A stretch of DNA of 64,000 bases from Salisapilia sapeloensis (Eukaryota; Oomycota; Peronosporomycetes; Peronosporales; Salisapiliaceae), in the NCBI GenBank assembly GCA_023334545.1, contig JAADVB010000055.1, positions 23,996-87,995 on the forward strand, written 5' to 3'. How positions within the stretch are numbered: position 1 is the first letter of the stretch; every line of letters starts with the position of its first letter. The notes under the pieces were generated by a model, which saw only the letters and a program-made list of their open reading frames with translations, ran no database searches and was not told the origin of the DNA. Of this stretch, positions 21,149 through 28,641 are shown piece after piece. The position numbers were made by a program, and so were the translations under genes.

Positions 21149-23673
21149 CTATTCTAACCTTTCGATTGCTTCCTTCATCTCATTTGCAAACGTATCCAAC
21201 GACTTGGTGCCGTGCACCTGATTGTCTCTTGTACGCACATTCACTTCCTTTTGCTCTCGCTCGCGATCACCGACCACCAGTATGTAGTTGTATCCACTGA
21301 GCTGAGCTTCTCGCACCCGCTTGTTCAGCGTCTTGCTACCTGCCTGTACGTCCACATAGACTTCTCCTAGCTTATCTAGAAGCGTCTGCTGTACTTGATG
21401 TGCGTACTCGGCATGGTTTTCCGAAATGGGCAGGACGGCGACTTGGCGCGGACTCAACCACAGCGGCCACTTGCCTCCAGTGTGCTCGATCAGAATCGCC
21501 ATCATGCGTTCGACGGAGCCCAGGACAGCTCGATGGACGATAATGGGCGTGTGCTCCTGTCCATCTGCTCCGTCATAGGTAAGCCCAAAGTTACGCGGCA
21601 GTTGGAAGTCGAGTTGAATGGTACCGCACTGATGCTTGCGTTGGAGCGCATCTGTGACAGCGACATCGATTTTAGGACCGTAGAAAGCACCGTCTCCAGC
21701 GTTTAGCTTCCACGGCGCACCAAATTCTGTTAGAGCTTGCTTCAGTTGCGTCTCAGCGTCATCCCACGTCTCGACGTCACCCATGAACTGGTCCGGTCGG
21801 GTGGAAAGCCTCAGCTCGAATTCGAAACCAAAGACGCCGTAGACGTGCTGAATAAAGTCTAGACACTGCCGAATTTCCTCCTGCACCTGGTCCGACCGAC
21901 AGAAGATGTGGGCATCATCCTGGTGGAATCGACGGACGCGTGTGAGACCTGTAAGCGCACCAGACGCTTCGTTCCGGTGTAAGGCGGAGAAATCTGCCAG
22001 TCGCACTGGAAGCTCTCGGTAGCTGTAGCTCTTGCTCTCTTTAAACAAAAGACAGTGACCAGGACAGTTCATGGGTTTGAGGCCGAATCCCTCTGCGTCC
22101 GAGTGGTCGTGGACGACACCTTGAGAGACCATGAACATGTCATCCTGGTAGTTTTGTAGATGACCTGACGTCTCCCACAGTTCCTTTTTAAAGATCAATG
22201 GCGTAATTACTTCCTCATATCCTCGCTTCTTGTACTGGTTTCGGATGAAAGTGGTCAGTTTATTAAACACACGTGTGCCGTGCGGTAGGAAGAAAGATGA
22301 TCCAGGACTGAGCTGATGGAAGAGGAAGAGACCTTGGTTTTTCCCGATGATGCGATGGTCTCGCTTCCGAGCCTCTTCCTGCAGGTGATTGTACTCTTTC
22401 AACTCCGACTTGGACGGGAATGAGATGCCGTAGACACGCTGGAGAAGTTCTTCCCCGTCCTTCCAGTGAGAAGCGCCGCAACGAGTGATGTCAAACGCAG
22501 TCAAGGCACCTGGCAAAAAGATATACTTGTTAGAGACGAGGAAAGAAAAGAGAAGGATAAATTGTCTGTCCAAGTGTAGCTCATCGGTACCATTACCAAG
22601 TACGAGAGATGTTCTTAAGACATATTCATGTAGGGTAGTGGTCACTGGGCATGAGAGCGAGTGGTAGCTGGGTGTAGCTGCTCTCCTGCCCGAAAAGCAT
22701 GCTCATAAGAACAGCACACCTCCCCAATAGTAGATCTCTGCACATGAATTACCTGTATGAGGGACGTGAGGTCCTCTGCACAAGTCAATAAAAGGACCAC
22801 AACGGTACAAAGTGACTTCTTCATCTTCCGGAATATTGTCCAGCATCTCTCGCTTGAAGGATGAGTAGGCAAATATTTCTCGAGCAAAGTCCCGTGAGAC
22901 GAGGAGTCTCTCAAAAGGCTGCCTAGCCTTGACAATCCGCTTCATCTCCTTTTGAATAGCTGGAAAATCTGTTTCAGATACTGTCCGGCCGTCTTGAAGG
23001 AACATTTCGTAGAAGAAACCGCCTTCCTCGAGGGCAGGACCATCACATAGCCGAACTTTGTCGCCATAATACGCCTCCAATGCCTATTACATGTCAAACG
23101 AAAGAGTTAATGGCCATTAAAACTCAGGATACAATCAATAAAGCAAGATACCTGTCCGAGAACGTGTGCTGATGAGTGCCAAAATACGTGCTTTCCCTCG
23201 TCGCTCGAGAAGCTGCCATCAAGTAATAAAGTAGCACGTTAGGCATCAAAAGTATTGGTGGCCTCAGTATGAAGCCAATAGTGGCAACGAATCGTAGGAG
23301 CTTGTACTTACTCGAGCAGCTCAATGTCGGATGATGCTTGGAGTGGCCGATTGAGATCGACAATGTGCCTTCCGTCCACCTTGGCAGCTACTGCTTGGAA
23401 CTTTGGAAGACCATTTTCTCGCATACGTGACAGGATGTCAATCGGAGTGCTCTCATTAGCCTCCCCAGTGAAATTAAATGCTTCGGATGCGTTAGGAGCA
23501 TGGACACGCAACTCAATTGGTCCTGCATTGGTACTCTGAAGCAGTTGCTGCTGCTGCCTTGCAACTTCTTTTTCCCACAAACTGATACGGCTATTCGCAA
23601 ATGTAGTTAGACATCGGGAAACGCGTCCTGTTTGGAGCACACGCCTCCGAAGTGCCACTGCAAGCTGCTGCAT
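21149..23673 (-). CDS. Threonyl-tRNA synthetase with organelle-type presequence
   Basis: Charges tRNA-Thr. Exons are 23312-23673, 23152-23212, 22753-23083 and 21149-22509. The ATG at 23673 gives MQQLAVALRRRVLQTGRVSRCL, a basic amphipathic mitochondrial-type leader. Then come a TGS domain (IELRVHAPNASEAF), the editing domain with HSSAH formed by exon 2, a class II catalytic core (FGLKPMNCPGHC, RLADFSALHRNE, RRFHQDDAHIF, CGTIQLDFQLP) and an anticodon-binding domain (VAVLPISENHAEYAHQV). The last intron (22510-22752, 243 nt) is the longest found in this gene. A downstream start could give a cytosolic form, but no strong second ATG is evident before the TGS domain. It is convergent with the Kelch gene. 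Confidence 0.95.
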
Positions 23674-25546: not shown

Positions 25547-26473
25547 TTACACTTGGACAAGACTCGGCTGGTTCGTGGAGCTGATCCAGGCGTTCTGGTC
25601 TTGACACTTTTCCTTGAGTCGCGAAAGCAGTCCGATGATACCAAGAGCGAGGAGGTGGGAGATAAGGATACCGCTGTACCAGATAGGAGCCCAGGGCGTA
25701 TTGAGCTGCAGAAACGGATACGGCCAGAAGCCTCGGGCGATCGTGCCGTGGAGTATCCACGTGAAGACAGCGTAGGAAGTGGGCCAGGCGATGATGAGTG
25801 GGAGGACGTCCTTGGAGACTGTGTGGTTGGAGAGCCAAAAGTCGATCTGGAGGAGCAGGATATTACCGCCGTGTTGAATGTAGCTAACCCAATTCAGAAT
25901 CTTCTCTTGCGTCTTTGTGTGTTTCGCATACGGGTACAGGATGGTCCATACGACGACGCAGATGAGAATAGAGGCAGCGAGGCTCATGTCCAAGAGGAGA
26001 GCCGTTCGGAAGCCTCGTTTCTTCTCATATAGTGTCCACCTCTCGGAGGATTTTAAAAGTGGTTCAGTCGACTCGACCTTTTGCTTTTGCTGCTTCTTGA
26101 CTTGGTAATGCTTGTACGTGTGGATGGTTGCGAGGAAGAAGTAGGCGCCTTGGAGCATAAAGTTCCAGCTAGTGTAAAACGCAAAGCAGAGGCCGTTGGT
26201 GCGGTGAGCGTCGTAGAGCTGGACAAAGCAGTAGAACAAAAAGACAGCGCCACGGTAGCCTACGAGGAACGAAAGGGAACACCAGCTTCTTGGTGTCAAG
26301 TACGGAGCTTCGTGCGATGAGGAAGATGTCTTGAGCGCCAATTCGGATTGGCTCGTCCTCCACCTGTACAAATAGATGGAAAAGGCAAAGACGAGGACCA
26401 TTTCGCATCCTACCACCGTAGCTTCCCATGTCCAATGGACTGGTTCGCCTACTTGAACTAGCTCGTCATACAT
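25547..26473 (-). CDS. FAR-17a/AIG1-like multipass membrane protein
   Basis: Single exon of 308 residues with about six hydrophobic helices (VVGCEMVLVFAFSIYLY, GAVFLFYCFVQLY, FMLQGAYFFLATIHTY, LLLDMSLAASILICVVVW, VLPLIIAWPTSYAVFTWIL, ISHLLALGIIGLL). YTSWNFMLQ keeps a Thr before the Trp-Asn pair, and IQHGGNILLLQIDFWLSNHTV keeps a His. These are the two positions thought to be catalytic in AIG1/ADTRP hydrolases, which cleave fatty-acid esters of hydroxy fatty acids. The rolling-stone family is an alternative with a similar layout. The assignment comes from memory of motifs. Confidence 0.5.
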   Translation of the reverse strand: MYDELVQVGEPVHWTWEATVVGCEMVLVFAFSIYLYRWRTSQSELALKTSSSSHEAPYLTPRSWCSLSFLVGYRGAVFLFYCFVQLYDAHRTNGLCFAFYTSWNFMLQGAYFFLATIHTYKHYQVKKQQKQKVESTEPLLKSSERWTLYEKKRGFRTALLLDMSLAASILICVVVWTILYPYAKHTKTQEKILNWVSYIQHGGNILLLQIDFWLSNHTVSKDVLPLIIAWPTSYAVFTWILHGTIARGFWPYPFLQLNTPWAPIWYSGILISHLLALGIIGLLSRLKEKCQDQNAWISSTNQPSLVQV

Positions 26474-26601: not shown

Positions 26602-28641
26602 ATGACGGAGCGCTCGTTGAGATACATCGACATTGGAGTGAACCTGACAAATGGACGCTTTCGTAAAGACCTGTCGCAAGTGATTCGGAGAGCAGAGGAG
26701 GCTGGAGTCGAAGCGATTATCATTACAGGCACTAGTTTGACCGAGAGTCGGAAAGCGCTGGAGCTAGTCGATGCGTATCAAGGAAAAACCACTGTGAAGC
26801 TATTCACAACCGTCGGTGTGCATCCTCACGACGCAAAAGGATTTAATACTGAATCGACAGTTGCTGAAATGAAAGCCCTGGTCGAAAAGTATCCTGGTGC
26901 AGTAGCTGCCATTGGCGAATGCGGACTGGATTTCAATCGAGATTACTCTCCTCGAGATGCTCAGAAACAAGCTTTTCACTCCCAACTGGAACTGGCATGC
27001 GAGCTACAGCTTCCTTTATTTGTGCACGAGAGGGAAGCCCACGATGCTCTCCGTTCAGTCTTAGAACCGTTCGTAAAAAGCGGAAGATTGCCTCCTTTGG
27101 TGGTGCACTGTTTTACTGGCACAGCAGCAGAGATGGACAAGTACATCTCAATGGGATTTTACATTGGTATCACAGGATTTGTTTGTATGGACGGAAGGGG
27201 TCATGCACTACGTACTATGGTCTCGCGACTGCCGGTAGAAAAACTCATGGTCGAAACCGATGCTCCGTTCATGTGCCCATACCCAAGTCATGGCGGTCGT
27301 AAGCCTAGGTGTGAGCCAAAGGATGTCGTATCGGTTGTGTCAACACTGGCTGAATGCATGGGAACGACAGTAGAGCAGCTAAGTCGAATCACAACGCAGA
27401 ACGCAAATCGTTTCTTCCGTCTACAAGATAAACGAAAGGAAGCAGCTAGCAAGACTGCCAGTAAAAAGTCAAGAGAGCAAAAGATGCAAGTTGAAGAGGC
27501 TATGAAAGTGAATGGCGGGAGTGGAGAAGGTGGAGGACAAGTGCTCCGGATTTCGACAGCAGTGGCAGCCGTGACAGGGCAGAATATACACATTGAACAA
27601 ATTCGAAGCAACCGACCTACGCCTGGACTTCGCAATCAGCACATCCAGACACTAAAACTTGTGGACGCTTTGACAGGTAGTGGGCACCTTCGAGGCAATA
27701 CTCTCGGGTCCAGCGAAGTGGCATTCGAAGGCAAGTACGCTGTCTGCGAGCAAAAGACGGTGCGAGCAACGTCTGCTACGAATGGAAGTGTCTCGCTTAT
27801 GCTTCAAGGTGCTTTGCCCATTGCTTTTCTGTCGACTGGAAAGGAGCCGACAAAGCTCCGACTTCAGGGAGGAACGCACGTGGGTTTTAGTCCTCCAATC
27901 GACTTTATGCAGCACCCTTTTATGACCTTACTCGATCGGTTGGGGTGCAAGGCAGATATACAAGTGAATAAGAGAGGCTTCTTTAGAGGACGCACGGGTG
28001 ACGTGCAGGTAAATGTTGAGCCAGCACCAAAAGGTTTTAATGTTGTTGACATCAGCACGTCATCACGCGATGTTGTCCGAGTCTTCACAAAGGTCACTGT
28101 CCATGGTCCGACAGCGAATGATACTTTTGCTACGCATATGACAGAAGTGCTAGAGAAGGTTTATCGAAAGCAGCTCCAGGTGAATAGTCAAATGGAATGG
28201 GAGACGGTCGTGGATAAAGTATCCCAAAGCTCGAAGCGAGGCAAGCAGCAAGATAAGGGTGGTCGTCAAAACGATCGAAATGAAGTTTCCGTCATGACCA
28301 TGGTGGAGACACAGACTGGAGGAATTCTGTCCGCGGATGAAACTAGTAAGAAGTCTCCGTCATCGATAGCGTCCATTCTTTCCCAAAAACTTCATGCCCT
28401 GCTGCAATCTGGAGCTTGTGTAGATGAACATCTCGCAGACAATGCAGTAATCTACATGGCGTTAGCGAATGGCAATTCTAAGCTAAAGGTACCAGGCAAT
28501 AAGCATCGTCGATCGAAGCACCTGGAGACTGCAATTACGGTACTAAAACAGCTAACAAATGCGAACATCCAGTTGACAGAAGAGGCGAGTGGAGAAGCTG
28601 CACTGTTAGAAGTACAGGGTATCGGCCTTGGTGCCAAGTAA
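26602..28641 (+). CDS. Fusion of TatD nuclease and RNA 3'-terminal phosphate cyclase (RtcA)
   Basis: One uninterrupted frame of 679 residues. Residues 5-285 are a TatD-type metal nuclease: IDIGVNLTN, TVGVHPHDAKG, AAIGECGLDFNRDYS, LFVHEREAHD, VVHCFTGTAAEM and METDAPFM, with all metal ligands present. A lysine-rich linker (KRKEAASKTASKKSREQK) leads to RtcA at about 305-679: EGGGQVLRISTA, NRPTPGLRNQHIQTLKL, LQGGTHVGFSPP, VDEHLADNAVIYMALANG and SKHLETAI, whose His aligns with the catalytic His that is adenylated. The protein ends LLEVQGIGLGAK, as eukaryotic RTCA does. TatD enzymes act as 3'-5' nucleases on DNA or RNA. RtcA turns 3' phosphates into 2',3'-cyclic phosphates. A linked RNA or DNA end-processing enzyme is inferred. 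No stop, intron donor or start lies at the join. Confidence 0.92.
   Translation: MTERSLRYIDIGVNLTNGRFRKDLSQVIRRAEEAGVEAIIITGTSLTESRKALELVDAYQGKTTVKLFTTVGVHPHDAKGFNTESTVAEMKALVEKYPGAVAAIGECGLDFNRDYSPRDAQKQAFHSQLELACELQLPLFVHEREAHDALRSVLEPFVKSGRLPPLVVHCFTGTAAEMDKYISMGFYIGITGFVCMDGRGHALRTMVSRLPVEKLMVETDAPFMCPYPSHGGRKPRCEPKDVVSVVSTLAECMGTTVEQLSRITTQNANRFFRLQDKRKEAASKTASKKSREQKMQVEEAMKVNGGSGEGGGQVLRISTAVAAVTGQNIHIEQIRSNRPTPGLRNQHIQTLKLVDALTGSGHLRGNTLGSSEVAFEGKYAVCEQKTVRATSATNGSVSLMLQGALPIAFLSTGKEPTKLRLQGGTHVGFSPPIDFMQHPFMTLLDRLGCKADIQVNKRGFFRGRTGDVQVNVEPAPKGFNVVDISTSSRDVVRVFTKVTVHGPTANDTFATHMTEVLEKVYRKQLQVNSQMEWETVVDKVSQSSKRGKQQDKGGRQNDRNEVSVMTMVETQTGGILSADETSKKSPSSIASILSQKLHALLQSGACVDEHLADNAVIYMALANGNSKLKVPGNKHRRSKHLETAITVLKQLTNANIQLTEEASGEAALLEVQGIGLGAK

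Follow-up and report, generated by a model that had tools for sequence, protein, structure and literature searches.

The window, by which we mean the whole 64,000-nucleotide stretch of Salisapilia sapeloensis DNA analysed here, encodes one polypeptide in which a TatD-type nuclease is followed by an RNA 3'-terminal phosphate cyclase of the RtcA type. On sequence grounds we regard this TatD-RtcA architecture as virtually certain. With regard to function, the reading we favor, at a probability of roughly 40%, is that of an oomycete protein in which two enzymes process 3' ends and would carry out 3'-end triage, healing some damaged ends and removing others. To judge from their residues, both halves are probably catalytically active; a coupling of the two activities in triage is a more tentative proposal. 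The fusion is a new architecture made from two known enzymes and not a new kind of enzyme.

No paper on a fusion of TatD with RtcA, or with a phosphate cyclase, was found in the literature searched, most of which lay outside subscription journals; in the available parts of PMC12699882, RtcA and TatD are mentioned in unrelated places. Morris 2009 (PMC2705460, available in part) catalogued 273 novel Phytophthora multifunctional proteins. This catalogue likewise deals with oomycete multidomain proteins, but its main text is without a TatD-RtcA fusion, and a text search of that main text found none of 'TatD', 'DNase', 'nuclease' or 'RNA 3'. The earlier note had described the two proteins as known only as separate enzymes, which agrees with the literature searches but not with public protein records, where the domain pair is already visible. 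RtcA is widespread and its endogenous RNA target is not known, according to the available text of PMC6277466, and until recently the nuclease functions of the TatD paralogs in humans had not been characterised (PMC10085689, in part). The persistence of the fusion across oomycetes hints that TatD and RtcA may act on shared ends.

Reading frame and TatD half

The fusion is encoded on the plus strand at 26602-28641 as a single open reading frame of 679 codons plus stop. Its translation has 679 residues and its sole stop is terminal; at the base composition of the window the chance of 679 codons without a stop is about 1e-15. A continuous 679-codon frame holding a full TatD nuclease and a full cyclase, as the earlier note had claimed, was thus borne out by translation and by Pfam, which places the domains at residues 9-273 and 308-657. 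A conserved internal start ahead of the cyclase was considered and rejected, a methionine lying within 12 residues of the domain in only 5 of 48 records (window included). Upstream of the fusion, and divergent from it, lies a minus-strand frame (25547-26473) whose start codon is 128 bases away from the fusion start, and minus-strand frames at 21149-23080 resemble, by eye, what we take to be a threonyl-tRNA synthetase with apparently more than one exon.

The TatD domain (residues 9-273; 26626-27420, plus strand) is a predicted TIM barrel related in sequence and fold to PDB entries 3rcm, 1xwy and 4p5u. Its match to PF01026 spans profile positions 1-253 of 253 with 215.7 bits against a cut-off of 27 (E 9.1e-64). 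The cut-off of the NCBIfam equivalog for TatD 3'-5' exonuclease was missed (248.4 vs 395), and by that model the TatD half is a distant member and not an equivalog. Alignment equates E106, H142, H169, E218 and D220 with the E. coli TatD metal residues E91, H127, H152, E201 and D203, and H74 and H76 with H62 and H64; H12 and H14 are absent and G12-V-N14 is found instead, the group I type with G-x-N and not H-x-H. In the TIM barrel, the metal residues, the H62/H64 equivalents and the G-x-N that replaces H-x-H, this half is like E. coli TatD (1xwy, 4p5u) and human TATDN1 (8efg), both of which are free-standing, whereas the TatD of the window is fused to RtcA. The catalytic columns, that of E106 (codon 26917-26919, plus strand) included, are invariant in the 19-row alignment A1 and also, among rows with a residue there, in a 52-row alignment. 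In E. coli TatD, E91A, E201A and D203A abolish exonuclease activity, H62A reduces it greatly, and H64A, H127A and H152A leave the enzyme active, as reported in the available text of PMC4176340.

Retention of these residues bears on one alternative, namely that the TatD half has lost its nuclease role and acts on some other substrate, the cyclase being the main function. Metal hydrolases whose substrates are uncertain belong to the TatD superfamily, and this counts for such a reading. We nevertheless consider it improbable, given that the five metal residues and both H62/H64 equivalents are kept and that TatD is the slower-evolving half. By sequence identity it is the cyclase half that diverges faster, with a mean identity to the window protein of 41% vs 58% for the TatD half (51 rows).

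Cyclase half

The cyclase domain (residues 308-657; 27523-28572, plus strand) matches PF01137 over profile positions 2-220 of 221 (E 2.8e-60) and is of the RtcA type by comparison with the RtcA structures 4o89 and 1qmh, with a diverged insert region. H640 (codon 28519-28521, plus strand) aligns to His309 of E. coli RtcA in 1qmh, the residue that accepts AMP according to the available text of PMC6277466. Its column is invariant in alignment A1 and holds H in 48 of the 49 rows with a residue there when 52 rows are aligned, the exception being P0041, a model merged with a Kelch neighbour; the E609 column has G in one row of the 52-row alignment. The statement that both active sites are intact was thereby upheld at the level of alignment, by the five TatD metal residues and by H640. 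The histidine of the EHLADN motif was rejected as the nucleophile, since it is H640 to which His309 aligns, and two fish relatives and one diatom relative are without that histidine.

The window cyclase shares with RtcA (4o89 from P. horikoshii; 1qmh and 3tut from E. coli) the fold, the EGGGQ, RxxR and QH motifs and the catalytic histidine. It differs in being fused, in having an insert that has diverged and lies outside Pfam recognition, and in belonging to a genome in which RtcB was not found. There was no Pfam match to the RTC insert domain PF05189 in the window protein, and the cut-off of the NCBIfam RtcA equivalog TIGR03399 was missed (207.1 vs 250.05); the predicted model has strands and a helix at 491-582, the insert region. 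Within the insert, residues 541-561 (28222-28284) form a low-complexity loop rich in Lys, Arg and Gln, which is mostly missing in the six Saprolegniales rows of alignment A1.

An assignment of this half to Rcl1, the cyclase-like ribosome biogenesis protein of related fold, was rejected: the score for TIGR03400 lies far under the cut-off (77.7 vs 227.95) and the genome has a separate Rcl1-like locus. The description of the cyclase as eukaryote-like is supported, the fused cyclases grouping with fish, fungal and algal rows, apart from archaeal and bacterial rows, in a midpoint-rooted tree.

RNA-repair genes in the assembly

We searched the assembly (19.5 Mb, 452 contigs) by profile; gaps in the assembly and introns may hide genes, so absences from it are weak evidence. 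PF01137 matched at the fusion gene and at one other place, C1:45566-46087, near which a frame contains an RTC insert domain and has CIDSTNQS where the fusion has CVDEHLAD. This locus we take to be Rcl1-like. By sequence the fusion appears to be the only RtcA-type match in this genome; the second RTC match looks like Rcl1.

Neither RtcB (PF01139) nor archease (PF01951) was matched in the assembly; 9 and 6 of 14 control genomes, respectively, had matches. Profiles for the tRNA ligase core (PF09511 and PF08303) likewise gave no match in the assembly, nor did either match any control genome. Tpt1 (PF01885) is present (E 7e-60), tRNA splicing endonuclease (PF01974) was found at two places, and TatD at four, the fusion included. 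A 627-codon frame at L014, 1051-2934 (minus strand), carries a P-loop kinase domain and a partial match to PF08302, the fungal tRNA-ligase phosphodiesterase (48 bits; profile positions 161-225 of 250, i.e., 65 positions), and has no significant relative in the PDB (best E 0.034). With its kinase and partial 2H phosphodiesterase, this frame may supply the end-healing part of an atypical tRNA ligase.

A possible role in 3'-end triage

In the triage role that we favor, the cyclase half would convert RNA 3'-phosphate ends (and, slowly, 2'-phosphate ends) into 2',3'-cyclic phosphates by way of an H640-AMP intermediate, and the cyclic-phosphate ends would make broken RNA fit for a healing and sealing pathway that operates without RtcB. 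The splicing endonuclease, Tpt1 and kinase-phosphodiesterase-like protein of this genome would be partners in the pathway; the kinase/phosphodiesterase/ligase/Tpt1 route begins from cyclic-phosphate ends. The TatD half would trim or destroy unpaired 3'-OH ends left unhealed. Healing and removal would then be alternative fates of a damaged 3' end and not serial steps, an arrangement we prefer because the 3'-OH that TatD is expected to leave could not be used by RtcA.

A more specific version of this proposal is RtcB-free RNA repair in oomycetes, with the RtcA half healing 3'-P ends for sealing by kinase, phosphodiesterase and ligase, and the fused TatD acting as an RNA exonuclease that clears ends beyond healing. 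We put this version forward as a rather doubtful one. If it is true, the fusion would be, as far as our searches show, the first example of a physical connection between members of the TatD and RtcA families. The fusion also gives access to a lineage in which RtcA seems to work without RtcB.

The earlier note had proposed a different order of events, in which an end is trimmed or opened and its 3' phosphate is then cyclised. The constant order of nuclease and cyclase in 19 aligned rows speaks for serial action on the same RNA end, but the chemistry of the two families does not support it. RtcA acts on 3'-P ends and, at a rate five orders of magnitude lower, on 2'-P ends, with a 2',3'-cyclic phosphate as product (available text of PMC8131947 and PMC13247085). 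E. coli TatD digests single strands, RNA as well as DNA, starting at the 3' end (PMC4176340, in part). In human TATDN1 the 5'-phosphate of bound dAMP points into the metal site, and modelling put the AP cut at the bond on the 5' side of the AP site (PMC10085689, in part). From these TATDN1 data we infer by analogy that TatD cleavage would leave a 3'-OH on the retained strand, whereas RtcA needs a 3'-P or 2'-P. TatD may also act on 3'-phosphate ends; a '3'-32P-NMP' product was obtained with E. coli TatD from 3'-labelled DNA (PMC4176340), the placement of the label being outside the text available to us. Taken together, trimming followed by cyclisation seems decidedly improbable.

Another alternative is that the fusion is a DNA repair enzyme, in which TatD serves as AP endonuclease and 3' exonuclease and the RtcA half adenylates 5'-phosphate DNA ends. 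The substrates of the TatD half may indeed be DNA, and H74 presumably corresponds to H77 of TATDN1, a residue that AP cleavage requires, which we count in favor of DNA repair. Furthermore, the available texts report that (i) DNA is a substrate of human TATDN1 and TATDN3 and of E. coli TatD (PMC10085689, PMC4176340); and (ii) 5'-P DNA is adenylated by E. coli RtcA (PMC8131947). However, the cellular role of 5' adenylation by RtcA stands without a test in the available text of PMC8131947, and the three other TatD matches in the genome could serve DNA. We therefore consider a DNA repair enzyme to be quite unlikely.

Linker and predicted structure

Between the domains lies a linker of approximately residues 276-302 (27427-27507, plus strand), which varies in length and sequence among relatives. 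Its length, which could be measured by pattern in 48 of the 53 records (the window among them), is 16-86 with a median of 37.5. The lysine-rich character ascribed to it holds for the window protein, in which Lys makes up 24% of the linker, but not as a general trait, none of the other 47 measured linkers having more than 10% Lys. An AlphaFold2 model of the protein has a mean pLDDT of 86.4 and a pTM of 0.59, with pLDDT below 50 at linker residues 287-295 and at a cyclase-insert loop, 544-556. Foldseek with this model returned RtcA 4o89 (TM 0.91 by target) and TatD 1xwy (0.92), with Rcl1 as a fold relative. The linker is variable and, as modelled, flexible and disordered. Given this variability and the pTM, neither a fixed domain arrangement nor a conserved interface nor channelling is implied.

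These features would also suit a scenario in which the join is a neutral tether and each enzyme keeps its usual activity, on substrates unrelated to those of the other; the fusion would have arisen once and would persist because splitting it is costly or because it aids co-expression or stability. We hold this to be nearly as likely as triage. A linker unconserved in both length and sequence, with low model confidence, is what such a scenario would predict, and database records show each partner in other company: in nematodes, for example, TatD is paired with UMP synthase domains, and RtcA is elsewhere paired with a methyltransferase domain. According to the available text of PMC12964723, annotation artefacts account for some helminth fusions. 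Against neutrality, the fusion has been retained in at least 52 records across deep oomycete branches, and cyclase-only oomycete records are few and partial-looking.

Distribution among oomycetes

At least 52 relatives carry both Pfam domains among the matches listed, 50 of them from the first protein search, together with P0122 and P0240. Organism names accompany 34 of the 52, all oomycetes with several species repeated, and 18 are without a name; the named genera are Phytophthora, Nothophytophthora, Pythium, Globisporangium, Lagenidium, Aphanomyces, Saprolegnia and Achlya. No two-domain record among the matches listed bears a non-oomycete name. The protein searches listed the best 120 of 223, of 129 and of 224 matches, and two of them scored the top 7987 and 7992 candidates by shared words; as only the best-matching candidates were scored and listed, fusions from other groups than oomycetes may have escaped notice. 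In the first protein search, rows aligned over at least 92% of the window protein show 36-50% identity. TatD and EGGGQ motifs occur together in 49 of 342 fetched proteins, all inside the fusion set.

Of 53 records (window included), 8 failed a simple check for the motifs of the two active sites: three continue into Kelch repeats (P0016, P0040 and P0041), two have abnormal ends (P0049 and P0051), P0043 is without EGGGQ, and P0026 and P0122 are without the exact TatD motif. Odd models of this sort are what might be expected if two genes had been merged through assembly or annotation error. However, the window frame was read directly from raw DNA and has no introns, and the identical join recurs across many species with differing linkers. 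On account of this recurrence we reject a frame-join or assembly artefact, to which we assign a negligible probability; the 52 relatives that share both domains give strong support to a true single-polypeptide fusion.

Cyclase-only records from oomycetes or oomycete-like organisms are P0123, which is without EGGGQ, P0124, which comes from a 2,110-base contig and groups with the fusions, P0125 and P0130. These look like fragments or partial models, and real splits may exist. None of the 34 named fusion records listed bears a downy mildew or Albugo name, and Phytophthora is well represented among them; this gap may reflect loss in obligate parasites or a gap in the databases.

Other domain combinations were also seen. 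In two metagenomic records, P0245 and P0248, a 2H phosphoesterase-type domain (PF13563) is joined to RtcA, perhaps as a pair that opens and closes cyclic phosphates; P0315 combines RtcA with part of RtcB and P0251 combines RtcA with a methyltransferase domain. Like the window protein, these records join RtcA to an enzyme, in some cases an RNA-end enzyme, but none has TatD. P0052 (916 aa) and P0053 have two TatD domains each. P0052, which also has a NUDIX domain, may be of Platysulcus origin, a guess from its PLAT prefix.

Origin of the fusion

We built a midpoint-rooted tree of 98 cyclase domains, comprising 24 of the 52 fusion-labelled rows (P0124 among the 24; P0043, P0051 and P0123 lie outside the 52) and 74 of 204 stand-alone or otherwise fused rows, 34 of them hand-chosen and 40 random. 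The fused cyclases form one clade (support 100/99) with a basal split between Saprolegniales and Peronosporales/Pythiales. Because the cyclase halves form this one clade, a single fusion event in an early oomycete is the simplest history, although the trees do not prove it.

A quick tree of TatD domains placed the fused rows adjacent to one another, with weak support and not as one clean group, and P0078 fell among them. In this tree, from which the other TatD genes of the genome were left out, the fusion label needs three changes, in part because the truncated fusion record P0051 was kept outside the 'fusion' label.

The rows nearest to the fused clade in the cyclase tree are protist-like cyclases, including P0269 (Phaeocystis taxid), with weak sister support (90/51); diatom cyclases are placed elsewhere, with green algae. 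P0245, P0248 and P0251 are neighbours of the oomycete clade in a branching order that is not fixed, and P0315 lies among bacterial-archaeal rows.
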